A stretch of DNA of 64,000 bases, from assembly GCA_017552965.1 (NCBI GenBank), contig JAFZNQ010000039.1:62001-126000 (forward strand), read 5' to 3'. Under the pieces are notes generated by a model that did no database searches, was not told where the DNA came from, and worked only from the letters and a program-made list of their open reading frames with translations. The translations under genes and the position numbers were made by a program. Position 1 is the stretch's first letter; each line of letters begins with the position of its first letter. The stretch is from Abditibacteriota bacterium. GTDB taxonomy: Bacteria > Armatimonadota > UBA5829. Positions 45,774-64,000 of this stretch are shown here, piece by piece.

Positions 45774-48692
45774 GTGAGAGCTCTCCTTTTACTCTGCGTA
45801 TTGCTGTGGGCTGCGCCTCTGTGGGCGGAGCCTGAGGCAGTGAAGCAGCGCTGGCCCGGAGAGGACAGGGCCATATGCGAATACGTATTGCAGGCGGACG
45901 TCTCCGGCCGGACCGACGCCACCGCCGCCCTTCAGGGCCTCATAGACCGGGCCGCCGAGGCGGGAGGCGGGGTCATATGGTGCCCGGCGGGCACCTACCG
46001 CTTTGAGGGCAGCCTGAGGCTCAGGAAGGGGGTCACCCTACGGGGCGACCGGCCCAGCCCCCGGAAGACCGGCGGCAGGGTGCAGGGCACCGTGTTTGCC
46101 ATATACGCCGGCCGGGGCTCGGAGGAGGGCCCCGCCTTTGTCACCATGGAAAAGGTGTCCGGGCTGACGGACCTGAGCCTGTGGTATCCGGAGCAGGATC
46201 CGGAGCATATTACCCCATATCCCTGGACCGTGGCGGCCACAGACAGGGGCTCCTGCGGCTACACGGTGCGCCGGGTGACCTTTGTCAACAGCTACAAGGC
46301 CCTGTCCAACGGGGCGGACGACGGGGAGGGCTACAACGTGGCCTTTTATTCGGACCTGTGCGGCTGTCCCCTGAAATACGGCCTGTGGATCAATCTGTGT
46401 CTGGACATCACCCGCTTCGAATACCTGTCCTTCGGCCCCCGATACTGGGAGCAGAGCGGCCTCCCCGGGGCCCCCGCGACCGGCAGGGCCAAAAAGGCGC
46501 TCCGCCAATATCTCTACGACAACGGCGAGGCCTTCGTGTCCGGGCTCTTTGACTGGCTGCCCATATACGAAGCCGACATAGAGGGTTACGGAGTGGGGCT
46601 CCATTTTGTGCAGAACGGCTTCGGGTGCCCCAACGGTCAGCTGTGCAGGGTCCGGGTCCGGGGCGGCCGGGTGGGCCTGCTGGCGGACAACGTGGCAATA
46701 TACGGCTGGTGCATCACGGACTGCGAATTCACCTCTCTTGACAGGCCCGGCGCTGCCGGGGTGAGGCTCTCTGCCGGCTGCGGCCGGGGCCCCTTTATGT
46801 TCCACAGCTGCCGTCTGGGCAGGGTGGAGGCGGAGGAGGGCTGTCTGGCCGCCGTGTCCATGATGAATTGCTCCCTCACCGGCGACGTGACCCTCGCTTC
46901 GGGGGACTCGGCGGTCATAAACTGCTCCCAAAAGGCGGGCAGAAGTGTGGCCTTTGCCCCCGGCCGGGACAATCTGGCGGCTTCTCCCGGGCTCCGTTAC
47001 ACCGGCGAAGCCCGCGCAGGAAAGGCGGACAGGACCGACGCGGTGTCCGCCTCTTACAAAAGACCGCCTCTTTTCCGGCCCCGTTCCTCCCGGGTGTTCA
47101 GCGTCCGGGCCTTCGGAGCTAAGGGGGATGGGAAGACCGACGACACCCGGGCCTTTGCGGCCGCCCTTGAGGCGGCGGGGAAGGCGGGAGGCACCGCCTA
47201 CGTCCCCGCCGGACGCTACCTGATCACCGCTCCCCTGACCGTGCCCTCCGGCGCGGAGCTGAGGGGTATAGGCGAAGGGCCTCCCCACACCATGGTGCCC
47301 GCCAGCTGCATCCTGGCCGGCACAGCCCCGGGCTCCGAAGAGGGGGCTCTGGTGAGCCTTGAAGAGGGCTCCTCCCTGAGGGGAGTGGGCTTTTGGTATC
47401 CCCGGGCCCGGTTTGACAGGGCGACTCCCTTTCCCTGGACCGTGAGGGCTCTGGGCAAGAACTGTCAGGTGCGGGACGTGTCTCTGGGCAACTCCTGGCA
47501 GGGGCTGGACTTCGCTTCTGCCGGCGACGTCTCCGGACACCTTATCTCCGGAGTGGTGGGCTGCTGCCGCAGGCGGGGCGTATTCGTGGACCACGCCCCC
47601 CGGGGCGGAGTGGTGGAAAACTGCCATCTGGCCGTCCATTACTGGGACAGGAACGACGGAGATCTGCCCTTTGAGGGCCCCCGGCTCCTGGGGGATATGC
47701 ACGACGTGAACAACGCCATGCGCAGGGAGTCGGAGAGCTACGTGTTCGGCAAATGCTCCCGGGAATATATACGCTCCACCTTCAGCGTCTTCAGCCGCAG
47801 GGGGCTCACCCTGAAGGAGGGCTTCAGGGGCGTGGTCATCAACCACGGCTCCGACGGCACTGTGTCCGGCATCAATGCGGAGGGGGATTCCCGCAGCCTG
47901 CTCATCAACACCCTGTCCGCCCCGGTCCCCACGGTGCAGGGCAAGACCGAATACAGGCCCCTGGACCCGGACAATCCCCTCTACGTCAACCGGGAGTCCC
48001 GCAGCATAGCCTGCGGCCCGGACTTTGAGGGCAGCGCCCGCTGTGTCAATACGGCCGTGTGGGGCTTCGGCGACGCAATACGGGCGGAGGGGCCGGGCAG
48101 GCTCACTCTGGAGCTGTTCAACTCGCTGCTGGGCCTCTCCCTGCTGCGGGAGGCCCGGGTGTACGGGGCCTATTCCCAGGCGGGCGCCCTTTGGGCTGCC
48201 GCCGGCAGGCAGGGTGACGCCGCCTTTTTCGGCAGCTGGGGCTTTTTGGAGGAGACGGGTCTGACGGACTGCGCCCGGGAGGCCCGGGTGACCGCTTCTT
48301 CCCGATACGTGGAGGGGCAGGGGACGGCGGAGCTGACGGACGGCTTTCCCCTGAAGTTTTACGCCTCGGAGCAGGAGGAAGGCACCTGGATAAGGTTTGA
48401 CTTTGACAGGCCCCGGGCCATAGAATACGCCGTCCTCATCAACGCGGCTCCCGACGGCGACGGCTACCTGACCCGGGCTGCGGAGCTCTATGGAGTGGAC
48501 CCGGAGGGCCGGGAGGTCCCCATAGGGGGCTGGCGGGACAATACCCGCTGCGTGGCCGTGACGCCTCTCGGGGGAGAGTGGCAGAGCATAGTCCTGCGGA
48601 TCCGGGAGCCCAACAGCTATGACAGGCACACCAGGATCGGAGACGTGTATCTCCTTACCCGGGAGCGGCCGGACCTGCCGCAGGCCCGGTGA
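45774..48692 (+). CDS. Exported double right-handed beta-helix protein with discoidin-like tail
   Basis: A 972-residue exported protein with a signal peptide (MRALLLLCVLLWAAPLWAEP). Two Pectate_lyase_3-type beta-helix modules are visible. The first starts ADVSGRTDATAALQGLIDRA and GGGVIWCPAGTYRFEGSLRL (about residues 35-430). The second starts VFSVRAFGAKGDGKTDDTRA and GGTAYVPAGRYLITAPLTVP (about 440-790). A C-terminal discoidin/F5-8C-like domain (about 830-965) has VTASSRYVEGQGTAELTDG and WIRFDFDRPRAIEYAVLIN. Such proteins are polysaccharide lyases, hydrolases or glycan-binding depolymerases; the active residues are not clear. The start is GTG with GAGGT upstream. The next gene is a close paralogue. 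Confidence 0.78.
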   Translation: MRALLLLCVLLWAAPLWAEPEAVKQRWPGEDRAICEYVLQADVSGRTDATAALQGLIDRAAEAGGGVIWCPAGTYRFEGSLRLRKGVTLRGDRPSPRKTGGRVQGTVFAIYAGRGSEEGPAFVTMEKVSGLTDLSLWYPEQDPEHITPYPWTVAATDRGSCGYTVRRVTFVNSYKALSNGADDGEGYNVAFYSDLCGCPLKYGLWINLCLDITRFEYLSFGPRYWEQSGLPGAPATGRAKKALRQYLYDNGEAFVSGLFDWLPIYEADIEGYGVGLHFVQNGFGCPNGQLCRVRVRGGRVGLLADNVAIYGWCITDCEFTSLDRPGAAGVRLSAGCGRGPFMFHSCRLGRVEAEEGCLAAVSMMNCSLTGDVTLASGDSAVINCSQKAGRSVAFAPGRDNLAASPGLRYTGEARAGKADRTDAVSASYKRPPLFRPRSSRVFSVRAFGAKGDGKTDDTRAFAAALEAAGKAGGTAYVPAGRYLITAPLTVPSGAELRGIGEGPPHTMVPASCILAGTAPGSEEGALVSLEEGSSLRGVGFWYPRARFDRATPFPWTVRALGKNCQVRDVSLGNSWQGLDFASAGDVSGHLISGVVGCCRRRGVFVDHAPRGGVVENCHLAVHYWDRNDGDLPFEGPRLLGDMHDVNNAMRRESESYVFGKCSREYIRSTFSVFSRRGLTLKEGFRGVVINHGSDGTVSGINAEGDSRSLLINTLSAPVPTVQGKTEYRPLDPDNPLYVNRESRSIACGPDFEGSARCVNTAVWGFGDAIRAEGPGRLTLELFNSLLGLSLLREARVYGAYSQAGALWAAAGRQGDAAFFGSWGFLEETGLTDCAREARVTASSRYVEGQGTAELTDGFPLKFYASEQEEGTWIRFDFDRPRAIEYAVLINAAPDGDGYLTRAAELYGVDPEGREVPIGGWRDNTRCVAVTPLGGEWQSIVLRIREPNSYDRHTRIGDVYLLTRERPDLPQAR

Positions 48693-48695
48693 ACA

Positions 48696-48704
48696 TGCTA
48701 TAAT
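48696..48704 (+). promoter_or_regulatory. Extended -10 promoter of the second beta-helix gene
   Basis: TGCTATAAT (48696-48704) repeats the extended -10 seen at 26924. No convincing -35 box is seen. The rest of the 109-base gap (48693-48801) is GC-rich, with a short self-complementary run GGCGCGCGCCGC near 48717. Confidence 0.5.
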
Positions 48705-48801
48705 TATTTATCCGGCGGCGCGCGCCGCGCCGTTCGGGCCGGCTGCGGGGCTGCTCAAAGCCCGGGCCGCAGAGACCACCGGAAGCAAGGGGGAAGACAA
48801 C

Positions 48802-51705
48802 ATGAGATTATTGGCAGTCATCATACTTTTGATGTGCGCCGGCGGCCTGTGGGCGGGGCCCGCGGCCATGGAGCAGCGCTATGACACCGAAGACTACGCC
48901 ATCTGCGAGTATATCCTGCAGGCGGACGTCTCCGGCAGGACCGACGCTACCGGGGCCCTGCAGGGCCTCATCGACCGGGCTGCCGAGGCCGGAGGCGGGG
49001 TCATATGGTGCCCCGAGGGCACCTACCGCTTTGACGGCAGTCTGCGCCTCAGGAAGGGGGTCACCCTGCGGGGCGACTGGCAAAGCCCCCGGGAGACCGG
49101 CGGCAAGGCGGTGGGCACCGTGTTTGCGGTCTATGGAGGCCGGGGCTCGGAGGAAGGGCCCGCCTTTATCACCATGGAAAAGGTGACGGGGCTGGTGAAC
49201 CTGAATATCTGGTATCCGGAGCAGGATCCGGAGAGCATCTCTCCTTATCCCTGGACCGTGAGCACCACGGACAACTCTTCCTGCGGCTACACGGTGCGCA
49301 ACGTGAACTTTGTCAACAGCTACAAGGCCCTGTCCAACGGAGCCGACGACCATATGTGCTACAACGTGGCCTTTTATTCCGGTCTTTTCGGCTGTCCCCT
49401 GAAGCAGGGCATCTATCTCCACTACGTGCTGGATATCACCCGGCTGGAGCACATATTCTTTGGCCCGGACTATTGGATACACAGCGGCCTGCCCGGCGCC
49501 CCGGTCTCCGACCGGCAGCAGGAGGCCCTGCGGGAATATATGTACGCAGAGGCCGAGGCGGTGGTGGCCGGACGCTTTGACTGGATGCCCATGTATGACG
49601 CGGTCATAGAGGGCTACGGAGTGGGGCTCCGGTTCATCAACAACGAGTTTGGCTGCCCCAACGGCAACCTGTACGGAGTCGTGGTCCGGGAAGGCCGTGT
49701 GGGGCTGCTGGCGGAGGACGTGGCTCTCTACGGCTGGTGCATCACAGGCTGCGAATTCACCTCCCTTGACAGGCCGGGAGCAGCCGGAGTGAGGGTGACC
49801 TCCGCCAAGGGGCCTCTCATGTTTTACGGCTGCCGGCTGGGCAGAACGGAGACGGAGGAGGGCAGCGGCGCCGCCCTGTCCTTTATGGGCTGCGAGCTCA
49901 CCGGGGACGTGCTCTCTGCCGGAGGAGACTGCGCCGTCATAGGAGGCGTTCAGATTCCGGGGACCAGGGTGCATTTTTCCGAAAAAGGCTCCAATATAGC
50001 CGCCCTGACGGGCTTGGTCTATGACGGCAGCGCCCGTCCGGGGAACGGGGCCTTTGTCCCTCCTGAATTCTTCCCGCCGGCTCCCAAGCCCTTTTTCCGG
50101 CCCCGTTCGCGGCAGGTGTTCAGCGTGCGGGACTTCGGAGCCAAGGGGGACGAGAAGACCGACGACACCCGGGCCTTTATGGAGGCTCTGAAGGCGGCGG
50201 GAAAGGCGGGAGGCACCGCCTACGTGCCCGCCGGCCGCTACGTGGTCACGGCTCCCCTGACGGTGCCCTCCGGAGCGGAGCTCCGGGGCGTCAGCGAGGG
50301 CCCGGCCCACACCATGGTCCCCTGCAGCTGCATCATAGTCAGGACAGGCCTTGGCTCCGAGAAGGGGGCCTTTGTGAGACTGTCGGCAGACTCCTCCCTG
50401 AGAGGCGTCAGCTTTTGGTATCCCCAGGCCCGGTATGACAGGGTGACTCCCTTCCCCTGGACCGTGCGGGCTCTGGGCAAAAACTGTCAGGTGCGGGACG
50501 TGTCCCTGGGCAACTCCTGGCAGGGGCTGGACTTCGCTTCCGCCGGGGACACCTCCGGCCACGTGATAGCGGGAGTCATGGGCTGCTGCCGCCGGAGAGG
50601 CATATTCGTGGACCACGCTCCCAAGGGGGGCTATGTGGCAAACTGCCAGCTGGTGGTGCACTACTGGGACCGCAATGACAGCGGCCTCCTGTCCGAGGGG
50701 CCGGCCCTTACCGGCCGTACCCCCGACGTGAACAACGCCATGCGCCGGGAGTCGGAGAGCTACGTGTTCGGAGACTGCGACGGGGAGGAGATACTCTCCA
50801 CCTTCAGCTACTCCAGCCAGAAGGGGCTCACCCTGAAAAAGAACTTCAGGGGGACCCTCGTCAACCACGGCTCCGACGGCACCGTGTTCGGCATCAATCT
50901 GGAGGACCGGGCCCGGGCGGTGCTCGTCAACACTCTGGCGGCTCCGGTGCCCAGCATGCACCTCTACGGCAACGCGGAATACAAGCCTCTGGACCCGGAC
51001 AATCCTCTCTACGTCAACAAGGACTCCCGCAGCATCACCCTGGCAGAGAGCTTCGCAGGAGACGCCGTGTTTGTCAACACCTCCCTGTGGGGCTACGGCG
51101 ACACCATACTGGCGGAGGGAGAGGGCGGCCTGTCCCTGATGCTGCTCAATACCATTCTGCCCAAGGGGACCGTCAGGGGCCCCAACACCCGGATCATCGG
51201 GGCCTATTCCCGATGCGGCACTCTGTGGGACCTGGCCCGGGAGCAGGGCGGGGAAGCCTTTTTCGGCTCCTTCGGCATCCTCACGGGCAAGCGCCTCGGG
51301 GAGGCGGCCCGCAGGGCAGAGGTCTCCGTGACCAGTCAGGTGTCCGACGGACAGGGGGCAAAACAGCTGACCGACGGTCTGGCCGCCTCTATCTTCGCCT
51401 CACAGCCCGAGGACGGGACCCGGATAAGCCTGACTTTTCCCGTAGAGGAGCAGGTGCAATATGTGGTGCTGATCAACACAGGCCCCGACGGCCACGTCTT
51501 CAACACCAGGGATCTGGACCTGTGGGGCTCTGACGCCGCAGGGAACAGAGTCCTCCTGGATCAGGTGAGGGGCAACGACCGCTGCGTGCTGATCATCCCG
51601 GTGGGGAAGACCCTGAAGGGACTGGAGATAGAGGTGATCACTCCGGGTCTGGCGGACAAATACACCAGGATAGGAGAGCTGTGCGTCCTGACCCTGCAAC
51701 GCTGA
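48802..51705 (+). CDS. Exported double right-handed beta-helix protein, paralogue
   Basis: A 967-residue paralogue of the previous gene, alike over its full length, with a signal peptide (MRLLAVIILLMCAGGLWA). The first beta-helix module contains ADVSGRTDATGALQGLIDRA and the second, from about residue 439, FSVRDFGAKGDEKTDDTRAF. Several blocks are almost unchanged between the two, for example NCQVRDVSLGNSWQGLDFAS. The discoidin-like tail starts near residue 833 (GQGAKQLTDGLAASIFASQP). GGGGGA-type ribosome site precedes the ATG; the in-frame start at 48619 lies inside the previous gene and was rejected. Likely a recent duplication with divided function or substrate range. Confidence 0.78.
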   Translation: MRLLAVIILLMCAGGLWAGPAAMEQRYDTEDYAICEYILQADVSGRTDATGALQGLIDRAAEAGGGVIWCPEGTYRFDGSLRLRKGVTLRGDWQSPRETGGKAVGTVFAVYGGRGSEEGPAFITMEKVTGLVNLNIWYPEQDPESISPYPWTVSTTDNSSCGYTVRNVNFVNSYKALSNGADDHMCYNVAFYSGLFGCPLKQGIYLHYVLDITRLEHIFFGPDYWIHSGLPGAPVSDRQQEALREYMYAEAEAVVAGRFDWMPMYDAVIEGYGVGLRFINNEFGCPNGNLYGVVVREGRVGLLAEDVALYGWCITGCEFTSLDRPGAAGVRVTSAKGPLMFYGCRLGRTETEEGSGAALSFMGCELTGDVLSAGGDCAVIGGVQIPGTRVHFSEKGSNIAALTGLVYDGSARPGNGAFVPPEFFPPAPKPFFRPRSRQVFSVRDFGAKGDEKTDDTRAFMEALKAAGKAGGTAYVPAGRYVVTAPLTVPSGAELRGVSEGPAHTMVPCSCIIVRTGLGSEKGAFVRLSADSSLRGVSFWYPQARYDRVTPFPWTVRALGKNCQVRDVSLGNSWQGLDFASAGDTSGHVIAGVMGCCRRRGIFVDHAPKGGYVANCQLVVHYWDRNDSGLLSEGPALTGRTPDVNNAMRRESESYVFGDCDGEEILSTFSYSSQKGLTLKKNFRGTLVNHGSDGTVFGINLEDRARAVLVNTLAAPVPSMHLYGNAEYKPLDPDNPLYVNKDSRSITLAESFAGDAVFVNTSLWGYGDTILAEGEGGLSLMLLNTILPKGTVRGPNTRIIGAYSRCGTLWDLAREQGGEAFFGSFGILTGKRLGEAARRAEVSVTSQVSDGQGAKQLTDGLAASIFASQPEDGTRISLTFPVEEQVQYVVLINTGPDGHVFNTRDLDLWGSDAAGNRVLLDQVRGNDRCVLIIPVGKTLKGLEIEVITPGLADKYTRIGELCVLTLQR

Positions 51706-51926: not shown

Positions 51927-54653
51927 ATGAAATCATTTACTGCTATCAAGTGTTCCCTGATCGCTGTGGTAGCTCTTGTACTGGCGTGCTTTGCAGGCTC
52001 GGCCCGGGCGGATATCACCGTCAGCACCGAGGCTCAATTGGCGGCGCTGGGCAATACCAACATCACAGAGAACGTGAACATCGTGGGTAAGACCTATGAT
52101 ATGTCCTCTTTCAGCGGCTGGAAACCCATCAAGAGCCTGGCTCAGAACTGCACCATCAACGGCAACGGCGCTGTCATCGAGGGCCTGAACCTGGGCGCAG
52201 TAGTGAGCTCCAATTACTGCGGCTTTGTGGGTCAGAACAGAGGGACCATAGAGAGCCTGTCCATCCGGACCTCCGCCAACGTGACCGTCCCCCAGAATAT
52301 GGGCGGCATAGCCGCCGAGAACCTGGCGTCGGGGACCATCGACAACTGCATCGTGTATGCCGACAGCCCGAATTCCGTGGTCATCACAGTCGGCTCCAAC
52401 ACCAAAGCCGGCGGCATAGCCGGCCTCAACAAGGGCACTATATCCAACTGTATGGTGAAGAATCTGCAGTTCGTGTGCAGCGGAGTCGGCGAAGTGGGCG
52501 GTATCGTCGGCAACAACGGCGGCGGTGACTATGACGGCGCCATCGAGAGCTGCTACGCTTATAACGTCACCATACAGAACACCAACGGCGGCCCCGGCGG
52601 CAGATACGGCTTTATAGTCGGATACAATGAGTGCGGTACCATCAATATCGCCAACGCCGACGGCTGCTCCCTGTCCAGCGACGACAGCTACATAGGCGGC
52701 GTGACCAGCTATGTGGACTATGATTCCGTCATATCCAACTGCTGGATCAAGAACTGCAGCGTGGCCCTGGCCCAGAACGGCTCCGGCATGATGGGCGGCC
52801 TTTTCGGCTACGTGTATGATGCAGGCGCTACTTCAATAACGTCCTGCTACTTTGGCGGCGGCAGCGCAAGCCTCACAAATAACGGCACGGGTATTGCGGG
52901 AGGCCTGGTGGGATCATTCTGCACCGAAAGTTTCTATCGCGCCGCCCTCACAAACTGCTTCTACGAGACGGATGCAGCCCCGGGCATCACCGATATGGTA
53001 GGCGCTTATGCTGGAGGGGACGACAGCAATCTGGCAAACTGCGACGGCGTGACCACCAGCACTATGAAGGGCTCCGGCTGGGCTGCCGACAACCTGGGCA
53101 GCGGCTGGATCCCGGAGTCCGACGGCTACCCGGTGTATTCCGACGGCAATATCAGGCTGGTATCCATTTCACGTCCCTCAAAGAACAACGTGTCTCTCAA
53201 CAGAAACCATTTCCGCCTGACGGTGGGAGACCTGAACGACATGGGCTACGTCAGCGCCGATAAGGTCATCGCTGTTTCCGACTTCCAGCTGGTGGACCTG
53301 CTGCAGGACGGCACCAGCGTGACCCTGGACTATCCCACAGTGAACGGGACCAGGATTACCTCCTCCATTGTCGCGGAGGACTACGCTACCCTGGACCTCT
53401 CTGCTAAGGTCACCAACAATACCGCCGATGCCCTGCAGGCCAAGTATGATGAATATCTGGCTATATACAACAGAGGCCGCAGGATGTATACGGTCTCCAG
53501 CCTGGCCACCCTTAAGACCGCTCTGGACGCCGCCAACGCGGCCCTGACCGATCACTATATCAACATCACCAAGACCGAGGCCGATCCTCTGGCCGCAGCC
53601 ATCGAGACCGCCTCTCTGGACGTGATGATGTGCACCCTTTCTTTCGACGCCGTGGACGGTGTCGTGAACGTGAACTCCGGCGCCGCCGTGAACCAGTATA
53701 TCGCGGAAAAGAACACCACCGTGACTCTCAACGCGATCCCCATGAGCGGCTACGAGTTCGTATGCTGGAAGGATTCGGCGGGCAACCTGCTGGGCGACGA
53801 CACCTCTCTTGAATACACCGTGTTCAGCACCACCACCATCACCGCGGAATTCCGCCCCAACAGCCGGTATACCTTTACCTATCAGGACAACTACGGCAAG
53901 ACCTACAAGATCCAGCCCGTCGCCGACTACAGCGACGTGAGCTATCCCGCTGCCGTGGGCGCTTATCTGAGGACCGGCTACAAGGTCAAGAGCTGGGACA
54001 ACGACTATCCCGGCGGCGATCTGCCCTCCTCGGGCAGCGTCACCGGCAACGTGGTCTTTACCGCTACCCTGGGCCATGATACTGCCGACACCTTTACCGT
54101 GAAGTACAAGCCCAACGCCGGCGCCGAGTGGGTGGAAGGCACCTACAAGCCGGGCCGCGTGTTCCGGGCCACCGCAGACGAGACCTACGGCGGCAACGCC
54201 TTCAGCTACTGGAAGGACCAGAACGGCAATACCGTGACCTACGAGCGCGAGCTGTCCGTCACCGTGTACGCCGCTATGGAGTTCACTCCTTACTACGAGG
54301 GCGCCCAGTCCGGCGTGACCGTAGCCAACCTGCAGAGCGCCGTCGCCAACAGCTCCACCGGCAAGATAGCCTTTACCGGCCAGGTGGTATTCGGCGATGA
54401 TTTCGCCAGCGAGGTCTATCACGGAGTGCTGCTCTTGAAGTCCTCCTCTGCCGTCAGCAGTCTGGACTTCAACACCTCCGGCGTGATCGTGGGCAAGTCC
54501 AGCGGCTACAGCGCCCAGACCAACACCTATATCATCAACAAGAAGAACGTGGCCGCCGGCGATACCTGGTACGGCAGAGCCTTCATAGTATACTACGATA
54601 CTAACAACGAGATGCAGATAGCGTTCTCCGACATCAAGAGCGCTACTCTGTAA
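51927..54653 (+). CDS. Exported GLUG-repeat protein with InlB-type repeat
   Basis: A 908-residue exported protein with a signal peptide (MKSFTAIKCSLIAVVALVLA, cleaved near ARA-DI). After a GxGAVIEGLNLG block, residues about 80-400 hold GLUG-type repeats such as NMGGIAAENLASGTIDNCI, AGGIAGLNKGTISNCMV and VGGIVGNNGGGDYDGAIESC. Then comes a beta-helical linker, a helical FIVAR-like stretch (SLATLKTALDAANAALTDHY) and a divergent InlB B-repeat (VTLNAIPMSGYEFVCWKDS). A C-terminal region of about 250 residues almost matches the next protein. No membrane anchor is seen. An adhesin or matrix protein role is inferred. AAAGGAGAGG precedes the ATG. Confidence 0.75.
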   Translation: MKSFTAIKCSLIAVVALVLACFAGSARADITVSTEAQLAALGNTNITENVNIVGKTYDMSSFSGWKPIKSLAQNCTINGNGAVIEGLNLGAVVSSNYCGFVGQNRGTIESLSIRTSANVTVPQNMGGIAAENLASGTIDNCIVYADSPNSVVITVGSNTKAGGIAGLNKGTISNCMVKNLQFVCSGVGEVGGIVGNNGGGDYDGAIESCYAYNVTIQNTNGGPGGRYGFIVGYNECGTINIANADGCSLSSDDSYIGGVTSYVDYDSVISNCWIKNCSVALAQNGSGMMGGLFGYVYDAGATSITSCYFGGGSASLTNNGTGIAGGLVGSFCTESFYRAALTNCFYETDAAPGITDMVGAYAGGDDSNLANCDGVTTSTMKGSGWAADNLGSGWIPESDGYPVYSDGNIRLVSISRPSKNNVSLNRNHFRLTVGDLNDMGYVSADKVIAVSDFQLVDLLQDGTSVTLDYPTVNGTRITSSIVAEDYATLDLSAKVTNNTADALQAKYDEYLAIYNRGRRMYTVSSLATLKTALDAANAALTDHYINITKTEADPLAAAIETASLDVMMCTLSFDAVDGVVNVNSGAAVNQYIAEKNTTVTLNAIPMSGYEFVCWKDSAGNLLGDDTSLEYTVFSTTTITAEFRPNSRYTFTYQDNYGKTYKIQPVADYSDVSYPAAVGAYLRTGYKVKSWDNDYPGGDLPSSGSVTGNVVFTATLGHDTADTFTVKYKPNAGAEWVEGTYKPGRVFRATADETYGGNAFSYWKDQNGNTVTYERELSVTVYAAMEFTPYYEGAQSGVTVANLQSAVANSSTGKIAFTGQVVFGDDFASEVYHGVLLLKSSSAVSSLDFNTSGVIVGKSSGYSAQTNTYIINKKNVAAGDTWYGRAFIVYYDTNNEMQIAFSDIKSATL
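53891..54653 (+). repeat. Conserved 3' segment, copy 1 of 2
   Basis: The last 763 bases of the first GLUG gene are nearly the same as the last 760 bases of the next gene (56757-57516), with long exact stretches, while the 5' parts differ. One codon is missing in copy 2 (HDTADTF against HDSDTF). Confidence 0.85.
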
Positions 54654-54667
54654 GAGTATATCCATAC

Positions 54668-54697
54668 ACGGCAGGCCCTGCGCCTGCCGTTTTTTTT
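54668..54697 (+). terminator. Intrinsic terminator after the first GLUG gene
   Basis: ACGGCAGGC (54668-54676) pairs with GCCTGCCGT (54682-54690), followed by seven more T. The stem is nine pairs and lies 14 bases after the stop codon. Confidence 0.92.
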
Positions 54698-54822
54698 GCC
54701 CCGGGGACCCCTTTTTGGGGAATTCGCAAAAAAAACGGGAACAAAACCGCGGGGGACGTGTCTTATTAGTGGACATATAGATTTAGTCATATGCAATATA
54801 AGTACTTAACAAGGAGATACTG

Positions 54823-57516
54823 ATGAAAACTGCACTATTCAAAAGGTTTTCCTTTCTCGCGCTGATGACGGTCATACTGGCGTCCCTTGCGGCCGCCGTC
54901 CATGCGGACATCACCGTCACCAGCGAAGCCGAGCTGGCGGCTCTCTGCAACACGGCCGTTACTCAGAACGTGAACATCGTAGGCAAGACCTATAACATGG
55001 CCCCTTACGGCTGGACTCCGCTGAGGAGCCTGGCCTCCGGCTGCACCATCAACGGCAACGGCGCCGTCATCGAAGGCTTGGATCTGTCTGCCGTCGTGTT
55101 GCAAAAATGGTGCGGCTTTGTCGGCCAGAACAACGGCATCATCCGGAACCTGTCCGTCCGGTCCTCCTCCAACGTGTCCGTCCGCAAGGCTATGGGCGGC
55201 ATCGCCGCGGAGAACAAAGGCACCATAGCCAACTGCGTCATGTATGCGGATACCCAGGGCTCCGTTGTCGTGGACACCGCGGGCAACATCCACGCCGGCG
55301 GTATCGCCGGGGACAACACCGGCACCATCACCGACTGCATGGTCAAGAACATGATCTTTTCCAGCTGGGGCTCGGATTACGCGGGCGGTATAGCCGGCAC
55401 CAACACCGGCACCATCGACACGTGCTACGTGTATTCTACCACCATCACCAACAACGACGGCAGCACCAGCGGCGCTTACGGCCTGATCGCCGGCTACAAC
55501 GGGGGCGGGACCATAACTGTCTGCAGCGTGGAAGGCTCTTCCGTGGGCACCGACAATGCTTATGTGGGCGGTATCGCGGGCAACGTTGACAAAGGCTCCT
55601 CCATATCCAATACCCGTGTCAAAAACACTGTGGTGCTTCAAAACGGCACCGGCTCCGCAGGCGGACTGTTTGGCCGCGTTTACAACGAGAACAACGTGCG
55701 CACTAACGTGGTGTCCTGCTACTATGGCGGCAATGGTCTCACCGGCTCCGACTCCGGCTCAGTGGGCGGCGTAGTGGGGGTCCTGGACTCCGACAACGGA
55801 ACGGATAAAATACTCACCAGTTGCTTCTTTGCTACCGATTTTTGTAGTTCCGGTACTACCGTGTATGGAGCTACTGCAGAACATGCAGGCGGCGACAATC
55901 TTGCAAGCTGCGCCGGCGTGACCAGCGGCATGATGAAGGGCCTGAACTGGGCCCGAGACAACCTTGGGGACGGATGGCAGAACGACGCCGACCTGTATCC
56001 CGTTTATGCCGACGCCAACGTGAGACTGGTGTCCATCTCCCGCCCGGAGAAGGACGGCGTGCCCCTGTCCAGGAGCAACTTCCGCGTCAAGGTGGGGAAT
56101 CTGAACGACATTTCCTACGTGAGGGCCAACGAAACTATTACCCTTTCCAGTATTTCGCTGGAGGACCTGGTCCAGGACGGCACCAGCATGACAGTGAACG
56201 CCTTTACCCTGAACGGCAGCGATATCACCGGCAATATTCTGGTCAGCCAATACAGCACCCTGAACTTCTCCGCCAAAGTGACGAACAACACCGCTGCTGC
56301 TTTGGCGGCTGAGGTGGCCGATTATACAGCTCTGTATAACGACGGTCTGCGGATGTTCACTCCCGCCAGCCTGGCCACCCTGAAGACTGCCATAGACGCA
56401 GCCAACTACGCCCTGAACGATCACTATATAAACATCACCAAGACAGAGGCTGACGCCCTGACCGGCGCCATGCACAGCGCTTCTCTGGACGTGCTGGTGT
56501 GCGTGGTGACCTTTGACGCCCAGAACGGTTCCGTCCAGTATGGCGGCAGCGCCGTCACTAGCGTGGAAAAGCCCAAGAACTCCACCATCAGCCTGACTGC
56601 GGTCCCCGACAGCGGCTACGAGTTCGTGTATTGGAAGGATTCCGGCGACAACATCATAGGCTCCGGGACCACCCTGAGCTACATGGTGACCAGGACCACC
56701 ACCGTGACTGCCGAGTTCCGCTCCCAGAGCAGCAAGATCTTTACCTACAAGGACAACTACGGCAAGACCTACAAGATCCAGCCCGTCAGCGACTACAGCG
56801 AGGTGAGCTATCCCGCGGCTGTGGGCGCTTATCTGAGGACCGGCTACAAGGTCAAGAGCTGGGACAACGACTATCCCGGCGGCGATCTGCCCTCCTCGGG
56901 CAGCGTCACAGGCGACGTGACCTTTACCGCCACTCTGGAGCATGACTCCGACACCTTTACGGTGAAATACAAGCCCAACGCCGGCGCCGAGTGGGTGGAA
57001 GGCTCCTACAAGTCGGGCCGCGTGTTCAGCGCCACTGCGGACGCGACCTACGGCGGCAACGACTTCAGCTACTGGAAGGACCAGAACGGCAACACGGTGA
57101 GCTATGAGCGCGAGCTGTCCGTCACGGTGTATGCCGCTATGGAGTTCACTCCTTACTACGAGGGCGCCCAGTCCGGCGTGACCGTAGCCAACCTGCAGAG
57201 CGCTATCGCCAACAGCGGGACCGGCAAGATCGCCTTCACCGGTCAGGTGGTATTCGGCGACGATTTCGGGAGCGAGGTCTATCACGGCGTGCTGCTCCTG
57301 CAGTCCTCCTCGGCAGTCACCGATCTGGACTTCAATACTGCGGGCGTGATCGTGGGCAAGTCCAGCGGCTACAGCGCCCTGACCAATACCTACATCATCA
57401 ACAAGAAGAACGTCGCTTCCGGCGACACCTGGTACGGCAGAGCCTTCATCGTATACTACGACACGAACAACCAGATGCAGATAGCGTTCTCCGACATCAA
57501 GAGCGCTACCATGTAA
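54823..57516 (+). CDS. Exported GLUG-repeat protein with InlB-type repeat, paralogue
   Basis: An 897-residue paralogue of the previous protein with its own signal peptide (start MKTALFKRFSFLALMTVILA, cleaved near VHA-DI). GLUG-type repeats (AMGGIAAENKGTIANCVMY, AGGIAGDNTGTITDCMV, AGGIAGTNTGTIDTCYVY) precede the helical FIVAR-like stretch (SLATLKTAIDAANYALNDHY) and the InlB-type repeat (ISLTAVPDSGYEFVYWKDS). The C-terminal 250 residues almost match the first copy. AAGGAGA lies seven bases before the ATG. It has its own terminator on each side, so it is probably transcribed alone. Confidence 0.75.
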   Translation: MKTALFKRFSFLALMTVILASLAAAVHADITVTSEAELAALCNTAVTQNVNIVGKTYNMAPYGWTPLRSLASGCTINGNGAVIEGLDLSAVVLQKWCGFVGQNNGIIRNLSVRSSSNVSVRKAMGGIAAENKGTIANCVMYADTQGSVVVDTAGNIHAGGIAGDNTGTITDCMVKNMIFSSWGSDYAGGIAGTNTGTIDTCYVYSTTITNNDGSTSGAYGLIAGYNGGGTITVCSVEGSSVGTDNAYVGGIAGNVDKGSSISNTRVKNTVVLQNGTGSAGGLFGRVYNENNVRTNVVSCYYGGNGLTGSDSGSVGGVVGVLDSDNGTDKILTSCFFATDFCSSGTTVYGATAEHAGGDNLASCAGVTSGMMKGLNWARDNLGDGWQNDADLYPVYADANVRLVSISRPEKDGVPLSRSNFRVKVGNLNDISYVRANETITLSSISLEDLVQDGTSMTVNAFTLNGSDITGNILVSQYSTLNFSAKVTNNTAAALAAEVADYTALYNDGLRMFTPASLATLKTAIDAANYALNDHYINITKTEADALTGAMHSASLDVLVCVVTFDAQNGSVQYGGSAVTSVEKPKNSTISLTAVPDSGYEFVYWKDSGDNIIGSGTTLSYMVTRTTTVTAEFRSQSSKIFTYKDNYGKTYKIQPVSDYSEVSYPAAVGAYLRTGYKVKSWDNDYPGGDLPSSGSVTGDVTFTATLEHDSDTFTVKYKPNAGAEWVEGSYKSGRVFSATADATYGGNDFSYWKDQNGNTVSYERELSVTVYAAMEFTPYYEGAQSGVTVANLQSAIANSGTGKIAFTGQVVFGDDFGSEVYHGVLLLQSSSAVTDLDFNTAGVIVGKSSGYSALTNTYIINKKNVASGDTWYGRAFIVYYDTNNQMQIAFSDIKSATM
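56757..57516 (+). repeat. Conserved 3' segment, copy 2 of 2
   Basis: The second copy of the segment at 53891-54653. The two copies are about 2.9 kb apart in direct orientation, so homologous recombination between them could delete or fuse the two genes. Confidence 0.85.
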
Positions 57517-57530
57517 GCGATACGGCTTTT

Positions 57531-57564
57531 ATACGGCAGACCTGCGGGTCTGCCGTATTTTTTT
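57531..57564 (+). terminator. Intrinsic terminator after the second GLUG gene
   Basis: ATACGGCAGACC (57531-57542) pairs with GGTCTGCCGTAT (57547-57558) around TGCG, followed by six T. The 12-base-pair stem is the strongest terminator in the window. Confidence 0.95.
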
Positions 57565-57601: not shown

Positions 57602-57632
57602 CATATTGGAAAACATGAATATGAGGTATACT

Positions 57633-60600
57633 ATGATAAAGACAGCGGCTGCCATTTGGCTTGTCCTCGCATCCTGCATGGTGCTGGGCTTTTCGTGGAG
57701 CTTCGAGAAAGACGAGACTGCTCCCGATAGCAGCATCACGGACTGCAAGGGAGTGTATAGGATAGTGGGCTCCGGCTTCGGCGACCTGGTGGAGGAAATG
57801 GACGCCTCTCCCGCCGGCGTGCTGGACGAAGGCCCCCGCAATCTGCTGGACGGGAGCCCGGATACGAAATACATCACCGGCTCCATGCCTCTGGAGATCG
57901 CCTATACCCTGACAAGTGCCGTGGGGATCAGGGGCTACTTTCTGACCAGCGCCAACGACTATCCCGGCAGGGATCCCGCCGATTGGGTCCTGGAGGGCTC
58001 CGCCGACGGCGTGAGCTGGCAGGCTCTGGACAGCAGGCAGGACGAAGCCTTTGGGGAACGGTTTGAAAAAAAGACCTACCCAGTGGAGGATGCCCCCGTA
58101 TTCAGATATTACCGTCTGAGAGTGACCAGCCGGCAGGAACCGGAGATACAGCCCGGCTACACCCAGCTGGCCTCCTTTGAGCTCATCACCGATACAGCCG
58201 GCAACGAGCCTGTGAAGACAGACGGCATGACCGTGTCTGTCAAAAACGCGCCGGTGCACTCCTGGATCAACGGAGGCGGAGGCTGGAAGGGCAGCGCCTG
58301 TCTGGAGATCCGCGGATCCCACACGGGCCCGGCCATGTGCAGCGCCGCGCTCCGGGAGGGCCTGGGGCAAAGGGTCCAAAAGGACACCGTGTTCTCCTAC
58401 ATGATCCTGCCGGACTATCTGGGAGAGTATGACTTTGACCACGTGAGCCAGTATGCGGCTCTGGATCTGGTGTTTACCGACGGCACCACTCTGTCCTCTC
58501 TCGGAGCAAAGGACCGGGATCTCTTTGGCATGTCTGCCCGGGAGCAGGGCGGCGCCAAGAGGATGATCACAGGCAACTGGAACAGGATCACCTGCGACGC
58601 CGGCAAATATGCAGCCGGGAAGACCATTGACAAGATCGTCGTCGTGTATGACAACCCGAACCGCTACGACGGCGAGAGGAGCTTTCTCACCTATTTTGAC
58701 GACGTGGACATCCGGGAGGAGGCTCCCCGCGCGGGGCTGACTCCGGCGGACTATATAGTCACCACCCGGGGCACCAATGACAACCTGTTCATGACCAGGG
58801 GCCTCACCTTCCCCGCGGTGTGCGTGCCCAACAGCTTCAACTTCTGGACCGCCTCCACCTCCTACAGGGACGGCCAGCTCTACAAGTATCAGCCCGACAG
58901 CAAGATCACCCATTTTATGTCCTCCCATCAGGCCTCCTTCCATCTGGGGGACCACGGCAACTTCATGTTCATGCCGGTGGACGTGGCTCTTGAGGAGGCC
59001 ACGGCGGACAACTGCAACGTGGGGGCCCGGGCCCGCAGCTTTGACTTTGACGGACAGACGGCGAGAGCCCACTATTACGGAGTCACTCTGGACAACGGCG
59101 TTGTATGCGAGCTGACTCCCACCAGCCACGCAGCCGCCGCCCGGTTCACTTTTCCGGAGGGGGTCAAGAGCTCTCTGGTCCTGGACTGCTGCAGCGGAGG
59201 CTTTGAAAACGGCAGGCTGACCATCGCCCGGGACGGCAGCTTCAGCGGCTACCTCAACACCCATTACGGCGCCGCCTACGGCACCCCCGGCATCTACGTG
59301 TACGGCCGGTTTGACGCGCCGGTAAAGGGCTCCAAAAAGCTGACGGACGACAGCATCATGACCTGCGTGGCCTTTGACAAGTCCACGGTGACCATGTATC
59401 TGGCCACCAGCTATCTGAGCCCGGAGCAGGCCCGGAAGAACCTGTCCATGGAGATAGGCAGCGGCACCTTTGACTCGGTGCGCAACTCCGCCAAGAGGCT
59501 GTGGAACAGCCTGCTGGGCCGGGTGCAGATAGAGGGAGCCACTCCCCACCAGCTCACCAGCTTTTATTCCGGCATGTATCGTATGCTCATGTATCCCACC
59601 ACTCTGGCGGAGAACACGGGTACTCCGGAGAAGCCCCACTGGGTCTATGCTTCTCCCTACACCAGCGAGCCGGAGAAGCCGGACGTCAGAGAAGGGGTCA
59701 TGAACACCTCCAACGGCTTTTGGGACACCTACCGCACCGCCTGGTCCGCCTACGCCCTGCTGTTCCCCGACAAGGCGGGGGGGCTGATAGACGGCATCAC
59801 AGAGCACTACAACGCCTGCGGCTTCATCCCCAAGTGGGTGGCTCCCGCGGGAGTGGAGTGTATGGTGGGCACCAGCTCCGACGTGATCTGCGCCGACCTG
59901 ATGCTCAAGGGCATCAAATTCAACAGGGAAAGGGCATATCTGGCCGCCCTCCGCAACGGCTCCTGCGACCCTCTGGGCTCCTTTGGCAGGCCGGAGATGT
60001 TCCGGGCCCGCTACAAGGGCTACGGCGAGAGCATGGGCTGGAGCTGGATGGCCGACAACTGCATCAACGACGCGGGCATAGCCCAGATGGCCCGGCTCAT
60101 GGGCCTGCCGGACGACGAGGCCTACTTCAACAGGACCGCAGTGAACTACACCCACATGTTCAACCGGGATATAGGACTGGGCTTCTTTATGACCCATTAT
60201 TTCGACGGCCGGTGGAAGGCGGACAAGGACACCTTTGATCCCTGGTACTGGCACGGAGATTACGTGGAAAGCAACGGCTGGGGTATGAGAGTCACGGTGC
60301 CTCATGACGGCAACGGCCTGGCCTGGCTCTACGGCGGCCGGGACAAGCTGGGGCAGGCCATAGACGAGATCATGGCCGCCGACGAGGACTTTCATCATTC
60401 CGGCAGACAGCACGAGATGTATGAGGCCAGAGAGGTGCGCATGGGCCAGTATATGCACAACAACCAGCAGGCCCACCACACCCTGTATATGTATCTCTTT
60501 GCCAACGAGGCTCCCAAGACACAGAAATACGTGCGGGAGGTGCTCTCGCGGCTGTATCTGGGCAGCGATGCCGGACAGGGATACCTGGGGGACGAGGACA

Positions 60601-61274
60601 ACGGCGAGCAATCCTGCTGGTATATCCTGAGCTCTCTGGGCATCTATCCCCTGAGCCTGGCCGGCGGCGAATACGCCATAGGCTCACCCCTCTTTGACCG
60701 GGTCACTCTGGACCTGCCTACGGGCAAGGTGGTCATAGAGGCCAAAAACAACAGCCCGGAGAACTGCTACGTGCAGAGCCTGGCCATAGACGGCAAGGCC
60801 TGGAACAGGGTCACCATCCCCCACAGCGTGTTTGTAAAGGCCCGGCGCATCACCTTTACCATGGGGCCCCGGCCCTCCGACTGGGGCAGGAACACCTATC
60901 CTGTCAGCATCACCAAGGAGCTGGCGGAGCCCCTGGGTACCGTGGACCTGACCACATCGAGCGACCGGGGAGAGCTCACGGACGACGACTCCAACACCGT
61001 GTGCCGGATAGACGGTCAGGCCTCTCTGACCGCAAAGGAGGAGAAGGCCAACCTGCTGACCCTGACCTGCGACACGCCGGAAAACGCTCCCCGGGAGTTT
61101 GCCCTCTACGGAGTGGCGGAGGAAGGCGAGCGGGTGCTCCTGGAGCAGAGAAAGAACATCAGATATGAATGGCCCAAGCAGCTCAAGCCCTTTATCATCC
61201 ACAAGCCGGGAGCCTACAGTCAGTATATCCTGGAAATAAAGGGCGACGTGGCAGAGGCCGAGCTTTTGAAGTGA
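57633..61274 (+). CDS. Exported GH92-family alpha-mannosidase with N-terminal discoidin domain
   Basis: A 1213-residue exported enzyme with signal peptide MIKTAAAIWLVLASCMVLG. A discoidin/F5-8C-like domain (about 30-190; LTSANDYPGRDPADWVLEGS) is followed by a beta region with WSFE/DYDNPNRYDGERSFL and the GH92 module from about residue 372 (DYIVTTRGTNDNLFMTRG). Family signatures include SGMYRMLMYPTTLAENT, NTSNGFWDTYRTAWSAYALL, YVESNGWGMRVTVPHDGNGL with E879 and YLGDEDNGEQSCWYIL with D987 and D989. GH92 enzymes are calcium-dependent exo-acting mannosidases on N-glycans or mannans. The start at 57633 follows GAGGT; 57606 lies at the transcription start. A second GH92 gene follows with one intervening base. 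Confidence 0.88.
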   Translation: MIKTAAAIWLVLASCMVLGFSWSFEKDETAPDSSITDCKGVYRIVGSGFGDLVEEMDASPAGVLDEGPRNLLDGSPDTKYITGSMPLEIAYTLTSAVGIRGYFLTSANDYPGRDPADWVLEGSADGVSWQALDSRQDEAFGERFEKKTYPVEDAPVFRYYRLRVTSRQEPEIQPGYTQLASFELITDTAGNEPVKTDGMTVSVKNAPVHSWINGGGGWKGSACLEIRGSHTGPAMCSAALREGLGQRVQKDTVFSYMILPDYLGEYDFDHVSQYAALDLVFTDGTTLSSLGAKDRDLFGMSAREQGGAKRMITGNWNRITCDAGKYAAGKTIDKIVVVYDNPNRYDGERSFLTYFDDVDIREEAPRAGLTPADYIVTTRGTNDNLFMTRGLTFPAVCVPNSFNFWTASTSYRDGQLYKYQPDSKITHFMSSHQASFHLGDHGNFMFMPVDVALEEATADNCNVGARARSFDFDGQTARAHYYGVTLDNGVVCELTPTSHAAAARFTFPEGVKSSLVLDCCSGGFENGRLTIARDGSFSGYLNTHYGAAYGTPGIYVYGRFDAPVKGSKKLTDDSIMTCVAFDKSTVTMYLATSYLSPEQARKNLSMEIGSGTFDSVRNSAKRLWNSLLGRVQIEGATPHQLTSFYSGMYRMLMYPTTLAENTGTPEKPHWVYASPYTSEPEKPDVREGVMNTSNGFWDTYRTAWSAYALLFPDKAGGLIDGITEHYNACGFIPKWVAPAGVECMVGTSSDVICADLMLKGIKFNRERAYLAALRNGSCDPLGSFGRPEMFRARYKGYGESMGWSWMADNCINDAGIAQMARLMGLPDDEAYFNRTAVNYTHMFNRDIGLGFFMTHYFDGRWKADKDTFDPWYWHGDYVESNGWGMRVTVPHDGNGLAWLYGGRDKLGQAIDEIMAADEDFHHSGRQHEMYEAREVRMGQYMHNNQQAHHTLYMYLFANEAPKTQKYVREVLSRLYLGSDAGQGYLGDEDNGEQSCWYILSSLGIYPLSLAGGEYAIGSPLFDRVTLDLPTGKVVIEAKNNSPENCYVQSLAIDGKAWNRVTIPHSVFVKARRITFTMGPRPSDWGRNTYPVSITKELAEPLGTVDLTTSSDRGELTDDDSNTVCRIDGQASLTAKEEKANLLTLTCDTPENAPREFALYGVAEEGERVLLEQRKNIRYEWPKQLKPFIIHKPGAYSQYILEIKGDVAEAELLK

Positions 61275-61275
61275 T

Positions 61276-64000
61276 ATGAAAAGACTTATCTTTTGCATTT
61301 GTATGCTGTGCCTTGCGGCGGAGGTGTCCGCCGCAGGCTTTTTTGCAGGCTTTGACACGGACAAGGGCTTCAGGAAGGACGCTGCCGAGGAGAGCAGGGG
61401 CGTCACCCACACCGACGCGCCCGGAGTGTTTGAAGAAGTGTTCATCAGCCCCGCCATCTCCATACAGGAGGGCATCGACAGGCTCTTCGACGGTGACGTG
61501 AACACCAAATACGTGACCAACACCCGGCCCGCGGAATTCAAGTTTCGCCTGAAAGCGCCCTGGGAGCTGAAGAGCTATCATATGACCTCGGCCAACGACT
61601 ACCCCAACAGGGACCCCGGGTCCTGGGTGCTGGAGGGCTCCGCAGACGGTGAGAGCTGGCAGACCCTGCACACTGTCACCGGCCACGAGTTCAAAGAGCG
61701 CTACGAAAAGGCTGTCTTTGACGTGGAAAGCCCCGGCGTCTACCTGTGGTACCGCTTTGGGAAGGTGCTCTCCCGGAGCATGGTGCCCGACGGATATATC
61801 CAGCTGTCCGAGTTCGGCATGGATCTGCCGGACAAGCTGGAGATCGATCCCGCTCCGGGCATGACCACCCGCATAGTGCAGGGAGTGGCCGACTGCTGGA
61901 CCGGCAACGTGGGCACGGGCTGGAGCGGCCCCGGTTGTCTGGAGATAGCGGGCACCGTGTCCGCCTCGGCTCCGGGGAGATGCGTCAACAGAGTGTTTGA
62001 GGATCTGAATATCCCGGTGGGCCGGAACACCCGTTTTTCTTTTTGCATACTGCCCTTTTATCGGGGAGACTTTGACTTTTCCCATGCCAACAAATACGTG
62101 AGCCTGGACCTGCGGTTCACCGACGGCACCCTGCTGTCGGAGACCGGGGCCCTGGACCGGGACGGCTTTCTCATGGGCGGCCGGGGCCAGGGAGAAGCCC
62201 GGCGCACCTTTACCGGACAGTGGAATTACATCAGCTGCGACCTGGGTGCTCTGGCGGGCAAGACCGTGAAGGATATACTGGCTGTGTATGACCGGGAGAC
62301 CGGAGCGCAGCAGGGCGAGAGCTTTTTGGTGTATGCCGACGATATCAGGATAGAGGACGTGAAGCCGGTCAGGAGGGAGACCCCTGCGGACTGGGTGGAC
62401 ACCACCCGGGGCTCCAACGACAGCTTTGTATATACCCGGGGGCTGCACTATCCCGCCTGCTGCCTGCCCAACTGCTTCACAGCCTGGACTCCCTCCACCA
62501 CCGACGGACAGAGGCGCATATACGCCTATCAGCCCGGGAACAAGATCACCCATTTTATGTCGGGCCACGCCGTCAACTACTGTCTGGGAGACCACGGCAA
62601 CTTTATGGTGATGCCCAACTGCGATCTGGACGCCGCCTCCTGCGAGCCCGCCGACGCCGACGTGTGGCGCCGGGGCTCCGAGTTTGACCGGGAGACCGAG
62701 GCCGCCCGGGCCCACGGCTATTCCGTGACCCTGAAAAGGGGCAATATCCGGGTGGAGATGGCTCCCACCATGCGCTGCGGCTATTTCCGCTTTACCTTTG
62801 ACGGCCAGGAGACCCCCAACGTGATACTGGACAGCATGAACTCCGAGGTGCAGGCCCACGGCAGGATCACCTTCAACCCGGACGGCTCCTTTGACGCCTT
62901 TACGGACCAGTATTCGGATCAGGGGAAGGGCATGCCGGGCCTGTACGTCCACGGCGTGTTCAGCGTGAAGCCCACTCTCAGCCGGCGCCTGTCGGAGGAT
63001 TCGCCTCTCTCCATAGCGGCCTTTCCCGCCGGCACCCGGACCCTGACCCTGAAGATAGGCACCAGCTACATCAGCTGCGCCCAGGCCGCCAAAAACCTGG
63101 CGGAGGAGACGGGCTCCATGGGCTTTGACGCCGTGCGCAACAGGGCCAGGGCAGTGTGGAACGAGCTCCTGGGGCGGGTGAAGATAGACGTCCGGGGCGA
63201 GAACGTGACGGACAACTACCTCACCACCTTTTATTCCTGCATGTACAGGCTGTTCCGGTTCCCCACCACCCTGACGGAAAACACGGGGACCGCCTCAAGG
63301 CCCGAGTGGAGCTACACCTCCCCCTACGCCAGCGGAGTGGACAAGCCCCGGGTGTTCCCCGGAGACATGCGCACCTCCAACGGCTTCTGGGACAACTACC
63401 GCACCACCTGGCCCGCCTACGCCATACTGGCTCCGGAAAAGGATACGGAGGCCCTCAACGGCATACTCATGCACTACAGGGAGACGGGCTGGCTGGCCAA
63501 ATGGCTGTGCCCCCGGGGCATAGACTGCATGGTGGGCTCCTCCTCGGACATCATCTGCGCCGAGGCCATGGTAAAGGGCATAGAGTTTGACCGGGACACC
63601 GCCTTTGAGTGCGCCCTGAAAAACGCCACCGTGGTGCCCCCCGAGGCCATGGGCCGGGCCGGCATGACCTACTATCCCTTCATAGGCCACGTGGCCACCG
63701 CCGGCTATTCCTGGATGATAGAGGACAGCGTCAACGACTACGGCATCAGCCGTATGGCGGAGATACTGGGCCACGAGGACGAGGCGGAATACTTCCGCCG
63801 CACGGCGGCCTTTTACAGCAATATGTTCAACCCGGAGATAGGGTATTTCGTATCCCGGTATCCCTCGGGGGACTGGGTGAGGACCAAGGACAACTTTGAC
63901 CCCTTCCTGTGGGACGACGGCTTTGCCGAGAGCAACGCCTGGGGGGCCTGCGTGTCCGCCGTCCACGACGGCGAGGGTCTCTGCGGCCTCTACGGCGGCC
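61276..64000 (+). CDS. Exported GH92-family alpha-mannosidase, 3' end outside the window
   Basis: The first 908 codons of a second GH92 enzyme; the gene runs past 64000. The ATG is one base after the first GH92 stop codon (TGA-T-ATG), so the genes form an operon. The signal peptide is MKRLIFCICMLCLAAEVSA. The N-terminal discoidin-like domain repeats the motif MTSANDYPNRDPGSWVLEGS of the first gene. The GH92 module includes DWVDTTRGSNDSFVYTRGL, MRTSNGFWDNYRTTWPAYA and CMVGSSSDIICAEAMVKGI, and FAESNAWGACVSAVHDGEGL with E885. The C-terminal GDEDNG-type motif would lie beyond the window, so its activity cannot be judged fully. Confidence 0.87.
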   Translation, partial: MKRLIFCICMLCLAAEVSAAGFFAGFDTDKGFRKDAAEESRGVTHTDAPGVFEEVFISPAISIQEGIDRLFDGDVNTKYVTNTRPAEFKFRLKAPWELKSYHMTSANDYPNRDPGSWVLEGSADGESWQTLHTVTGHEFKERYEKAVFDVESPGVYLWYRFGKVLSRSMVPDGYIQLSEFGMDLPDKLEIDPAPGMTTRIVQGVADCWTGNVGTGWSGPGCLEIAGTVSASAPGRCVNRVFEDLNIPVGRNTRFSFCILPFYRGDFDFSHANKYVSLDLRFTDGTLLSETGALDRDGFLMGGRGQGEARRTFTGQWNYISCDLGALAGKTVKDILAVYDRETGAQQGESFLVYADDIRIEDVKPVRRETPADWVDTTRGSNDSFVYTRGLHYPACCLPNCFTAWTPSTTDGQRRIYAYQPGNKITHFMSGHAVNYCLGDHGNFMVMPNCDLDAASCEPADADVWRRGSEFDRETEAARAHGYSVTLKRGNIRVEMAPTMRCGYFRFTFDGQETPNVILDSMNSEVQAHGRITFNPDGSFDAFTDQYSDQGKGMPGLYVHGVFSVKPTLSRRLSEDSPLSIAAFPAGTRTLTLKIGTSYISCAQAAKNLAEETGSMGFDAVRNRARAVWNELLGRVKIDVRGENVTDNYLTTFYSCMYRLFRFPTTLTENTGTASRPEWSYTSPYASGVDKPRVFPGDMRTSNGFWDNYRTTWPAYAILAPEKDTEALNGILMHYRETGWLAKWLCPRGIDCMVGSSSDIICAEAMVKGIEFDRDTAFECALKNATVVPPEAMGRAGMTYYPFIGHVATAGYSWMIEDSVNDYGISRMAEILGHEDEAEYFRRTAAFYSNMFNPEIGYFVSRYPSGDWVRTKDNFDPFLWDDGFAESNAWGACVSAVHDGEGLCGLYGG

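Follow-up and report, generated by a model that had tools for sequence, protein, structure and literature searches.

Gene organisation and domain architecture

Two genes, here called A and B, follow one another on the same strand of a 64,000-nucleotide stretch of an Abditibacteriota genome (the window), separated by 169 nt. Their features are listed in Table 1. The pair lies between two other doublets of like genes: two Pect-lyase_RHGA_epim proteins upstream, in overlapping frames (45774-48692 and 48619-51705), and two GH92 proteins downstream (57606-63999). Such a carbohydrate-degrading neighbourhood fits a putative contact with glycans, although it proves nothing.

Table 1. Features of genes A and B, in coordinates of the window.
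Feature	Position	Strand	Description or basis
Gene A	51927-54653	+	908-aa secreted GLUG/InlB-repeat protein
A signal-peptide-like N-terminus, residues 1-28	51927-52010	+	Sequence; KD peak 3.27; helix 4-23 in model
A GLUG right-handed beta-helix, about residues 29-413, divergent part	52011-53165	+	AF2 model; VIA against IgA1 protease helix
A first InlB B-repeat-like domain (Flg_new_2), about residues 568-645	53628-53861	+	Pfam E 3e-10 at 584-645; model strands from 568
A homogenised 3' tract, residues 641-908 and stop	53847-54653	+	pS 0.239 against 0.513 upstream; break scans; model
A C-terminal module, last 113 residues	54312-54650	+	FN3/Ig-like in model
Terminator-like hairpin and T-run after A	54668-54690	+
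Gene B	54823-57516	+	897-aa tandem paralogue of A
B signal-peptide-like N-terminus, residues 1-29	54823-54909	+	Sequence; KD peak 2.56
B counterpart GLUG beta-helix region	54907-56034	+	Placed by alignment to A; Glug E 0.0033, below Pfam cut-off
B first InlB B-repeat-like domain (Flg_new_2), residues 567-634	56521-56724	+	Pfam E 1.4e-09
B homogenised 3' tract, residues 631-897 and stop	56713-57516	+	A/B alignment, pS
B C-terminal module, last 113 residues	57175-57513	+
Terminator-like hairpin and T-run after B	57531-57558	+

In its full-length model (mean pLDDT 78.8), A runs from a signal helix through a right-handed beta-helix, a beta domain and a helical linker (about residues 498-560) to a row of beta domains, and the modelled 3' tract contains two further repeat-like beta domains and the terminal module. 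The fold of the N-terminal helix is most like that of IgA1 proteases (7uvk, 6xja; VIA Z 28.1 over 283 residues, rmsd 2.9), followed by B. ovatus 3n6z (Z 24.6), with other beta-helices at 19.5 or below. The matched stretches of these structures we take to be GLUG helices. Classification as an IgA1 protease (M26) was rejected, because only the helix fold is common to both: there is no M26 match in Pfam, and HExxH occurs in none of 11 family members.

Flg_new_2 (PF18998) exceeds its cut-off of 23.6 in both proteins (40.4 bits in A, 38.2 in B) and is matched in seven of ten family members at E 0.01. Glug (PF07581) reaches 18.2 bits in B, short of the curated 20.5, and is matched in four of the ten at the same E-value; in a six-frame scan of the genome it passes the Pfam cut-off once, in another copy of the family, C112a. 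The predicted N-terminal fold agrees with a GLUG helix, and A and B are putative members of the GLUG family. Neither LPxTG, a lipobox nor a C-terminal membrane segment was found in any of the 11 members, and the LPxTG end with membrane segment that marks sortase-anchored surface proteins is thus absent from them. The export or attachment role that the initial annotation suggested for the C-terminus is accordingly a putative one, and the missing anchor motif counts against the adhesin-like reading given below.

Divergence along the pair

The initial annotation had drawn attention to nearly identical 3' ends of about 760 bases and divergent 5' ends, and this holds: 690 of 757 aligned positions are identical over the last 760 nt (91%) and 1250 of 1925 (65%) over the remaining length. 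The flanks are near background (68/142 in the 150 nt upstream, 50/85 in the 90 nt downstream). Although they have diverged and contain small indels, the 5' parts are homologous rather than unrelated. At the protein level, 336 of 627 residues agree before A-residue 641 and 238 of 267 after it. The last 250 residues, described earlier as 'almost unchanged', are about 91% identical (226/249), and the last 113 agree at 102 positions.

Synonymous sites were used to separate conversion from selection, the two causes that the initial annotation had offered. Values of pS and pN were derived from Nei-Gojobori counts on a codon alignment divided at A-residue 641 into an N-part and a C-part, and the control was G2_242, a homologue from another genome of the same genus (a sister species). 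This control gene carries an in-frame TAG and may be a pseudogene or reflect an assembly error. Between A and B, windowed pS ranges from 0.36 to 0.78 over the first 640 columns and from 0.13 to 0.31 beyond, with overall values falling from 0.513 in the N-part to 0.239 in the C-part. Against the sister species pS is flat (0.563 to 0.566 for A, 0.584 to 0.557 for B). The resulting ratio of ratios is -0.745 (95% -1.081 to -0.467), with none of 2000 codon bootstraps at or above zero. The break is not a product of chance, as none of 2000 permutations reached the observed value in a maximum chi-square test on synonymous codons, whereas against G2_242 the counts were 909 of 2000 for A and 448 of 2000 for B. 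A single break fits best near A-residue 536, the interval of 2-unit support covering residues 525-654.

The same pattern is seen in codons that encode an identical residue in A, B and G2_242: A and B differ at 78 of 195 such codons in the N-part and 18 of 141 in the C-part, and A and G2_242 at 85 of 195 and 61 of 141. Tree paths between A and B shorten from 0.555 (N) to 0.103 (C), while those between A and G2_242, summed from the trees, are about 0.81 and 0.58. The two genes are each other's nearest relatives in both trees, but the N-part split has only 66% support with one sister-species homologue, which leaves orthology there tentative. Even divergence at synonymous sites, named in the initial annotation as the refuting result, is not what was found, and the outcome favours conversion. 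Selection keeps a part in the explanation. As pN also falls between species (0.383 to 0.275), purifying selection is stronger in the C-part too; and since distant paralogue pairs dip mildly in pS there (for example, 0.57 to 0.45), part of the A/B drop may reflect codon-usage constraint. Synonymous divergence in the tract is nevertheless reduced beyond such constraint. Within it, dS between A and B is about 0.29, so the exchange would be old. GC-biased conversion was also considered, and GC3 proved uninformative: 10 of 11 sequences, the converted ones among them, have a higher value in the C-part, and nothing sets the converted ones apart.

Other copies of the family

Nine copies of the family occur in this genome and two in a congener. 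Of 291 genomes of the phylum, the other 289, a third congener included, yielded no copy. Copies form three tandem pairs: A/B, C112a/b and C56a/b. In C112a/b, pS falls from 0.386 to 0.130 (ratio of ratios -0.936, 0/2000 bootstraps), with a patchwork of tracts upstream. C56a and C56b show a modest drop only (0.542 to 0.417; 102/2000 permutations), so that tandem position alone is insufficient for homogenised ends. C74 and C56b, located on different contigs, are less divergent in their last part (15/2000 permutations; 5/2000 bootstraps at or above zero), and the break in A39/C112b was equalled in 7 of 2000 permutations; most remaining pairs tested have no break. The pairs were chosen by hand (15 for the permutation break test, five sets for the bootstrap), and the weaker results are read accordingly.

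Several smaller features accompany these copies. Roughly the first 60 bases that follow the stop codons of C74 and C56a (L011, L012), terminator included, are almost identical although the coding ends are not, a hint of an exchange in its own right. C81 (L014) and G2_169 (L018) have in common an extra C-terminal tail of some 20-30 residues that is absent from the other nine members; the idea of a sorting tail was rejected, as the corresponding DNA pattern has a single match in the genome, which is C81. Beside other members lie intergenic repeats that contain palindromic stretches (L012:243-301, 3472-3530, 3509-3571 and 3692-3754; L010:68-125). One such pattern has no match in the window, and these palindromes were discarded as drivers of conversion. 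The assembly consists of 138 contigs, and most other family members lie near contig ends (C56, C104, C81, C74, C112), so further copies may be missing from it.

Probable origin of the closely similar 3' ends

Probably, A and B are tandem paralogues in a lineage-restricted family of secreted, adhesin-like proteins, in which a beta-helix binds a putative ligand and gene conversion has overwritten the 3' third, with purifying selection acting in addition. The signal peptide would lead to the GLUG beta-helix, which would most likely be in contact with some ligand, for instance a glycan or the surface of a host or food particle. Next would come the helical linker, then InlB-type repeats forming a stalk, with an FN3/Ig-like module at the end of the chain. 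After duplication, conversion between the neighbours would have overwritten the stalk and terminal module at least once; we infer this event because synonymous divergence has been lost specifically in this pair. Purifying selection would keep the 3' third similar in all copies, and the beta-helix would have kept diverging.

Could strong purifying selection on the C-part, codons included, have produced the pattern with no exchange at all? The lower pN/pS in the C-part and its mildly lower pS between distant paralogues are what this would predict, but pS falls by at most 0.03 there against the sister-species gene, a control that argues against selection as sole cause. The A/B drop also exceeds that in ten comparisons with other paralogues (ratio of ratios -0.571; 0/2000 bootstraps at or above zero). 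The pair-specific synonymous drop largely refutes selection acting alone, which we regard as very improbable. Somewhat less improbable, though still unlikely, is an exchange at the opposite end, by which A and B would stem from a later duplication of the whole gene (dS about 0.29), the 5' two thirds of one of them having then been replaced from another, diverged relative. A single break between low and high divergence is symmetrical, and the data do not tell which side was exchanged; moreover, with the assembly in 138 pieces, a donor could be missing or reside in another strain. No donor is seen, however: the N-part tree places A and B nearest to one another among the nine genomic copies, with G2_242 next, and the C112 pair would require several such replacements.

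It is also conceivable, but hardly credible, that conversion here serves an active variation system that reshuffles the proteins to escape phages or immunity. Nine copies, some in tandem, with mosaic tracts and divergent beta-helices are the ingredients of such a system, but the part held in common is the conserved tail rather than the variable region, and divergence between A and B is old on both sides of the break. Each gene has its own signal peptide and terminator-like hairpin, with no sign of silent cassettes and one expression site, and dN/dS in the N-part is below 1 (0.38/0.86).

The most likely reading remains that a family of secreted adhesin-like proteins is evolving partly in concert, like homA/homB of Helicobacter pylori. 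In that species, according to PMC2795765, the 3' segments of the paralogues homA/homB and babA/babB evolve in concert by gene conversion and their 5' segments diverge. This is the same 3'/5' pattern as in A/B, with synonymous rates as the test in both cases, but the proteins are unrelated, and strain comparisons were made there where one sister-species homologue is used here. With the present case, concerted evolution of 3' ends, as known for outer-membrane proteins of H. pylori, would be extended to a beta-helix family of surface type in a small phylum.

Proteins with Flg_new and GLUG repeats are presented in PMC9723798 as putative adhesin-like proteins of gut archaea and bacteria. Like the Listeria-Bacteroides/InlB B-repeat proteins of that text, some of which have GLUG, A and B carry Flg_new_2/Flg_new repeats; they differ in ending with an uncatalogued module. 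Unlike InlB, they have no leucine-rich-repeat match in Pfam. A further parallel is offered by the Giant proteins of Apilactobacillus, for which PMC12863079 describes extracellular proteins encoded by consecutive genes, with recombination and with conserved C-terminal segments, several of them having N-terminal beta-solenoids; these proteins are 3,000-8,000 aa long with DUF5776 ends, in contrast to A and B. Our literature search returned nothing combining GLUG, gene conversion and surface protein.

The C-terminal module

The kind of process described above is already known, and the freshest part of the finding is the terminal domain. The initial annotation held that the last 120 residues match no known domain. 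For sequence databases this is borne out: Pfam has no family at a meaningful E-value for the last 113 residues in 12 members (best 0.03), and its fn3 profile has no match in them at E up to 1; NCBIfam has none when the longer C-part is searched in nine members (best 0.054), and the PDB, searched by sequence, has no match to the module at E up to 1. Plasmid and phage collections likewise contain no match, at E 0.01, to a 115-residue stretch holding these 113 residues, and a literature search with the module's motif strings gave an unrelated match only. At the level of structure and homology the claim needs qualifying, as the module has an FN3/Ig-like model and homologues in gut Clostridia.

A separate model of the C-part (317 residues, mean pLDDT 91.3) ends in a domain predicted to adopt an FN3/Ig-like fold. 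VIA gives Z up to 10.1 (91 residues, rmsd 2.5), with many FN3 and Ig chains tied, as for a common fold; Foldseek returned nothing for this model at E of 0.001 or below. The assignment is drawn from the separate model only, since the last 110 residues of the full-length model are of low confidence. A conserved GD-WYGRA stretch in it resembles the FN3 tyrosine-corner strand.

The search for other proteins with this end, proposed at the outset, led to secreted proteins of gut Clostridia (Aphodoplasma, UBA4717 and RGIG4639 MAGs). They have the terminal domain in common with A and B at 28-43% identity, placed likewise at the C-terminus after InlB-type repeats, but carry CBM, F5/8C, GDSL and Big domains in their N-terminal parts, with no Glug match. 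A scan of genome contigs gave 238 pattern matches and four confirmed loci, all of them in Clostridia MAGs. The module is matched in all four genomes of G292's family, in 7 of 196 in an even sample of its class and, within the phylum of the window, in 2 of 291, which belong to a single genus; this distribution suggests a putative transfer into the genus. More speculatively, and in our judgement rather unlikely, the 113-residue domain may have moved, as a mobile C-terminal module, out of gut Clostridia and into a single genus of a small phylum, and may serve as a common end-piece for surface attachment or secretion, conversion between neighbouring genes keeping it interchangeable while the binding helices diversify. 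A profile built from this uncatalogued domain, which apparently occurs in more than one phylum, could help to identify gut adhesin-like proteins.

The three Clostridia genomes behind the confirmed loci contain 17 matched stretches, and Flg_new_2 is present in all six long Clostridia frames scanned; four of these also contain CBM, F5/8C, GDSL or Big domains. In the 126-column alignment of the module, the Clostridia rows are 26-38% identical. Its motif pattern is present in 13 of 16 loci examined (of these 13, three genes and a fragment, L028, had already come up in the contig scan) and absent from three; where present, it always lies 27-41 residues before the stop codon.
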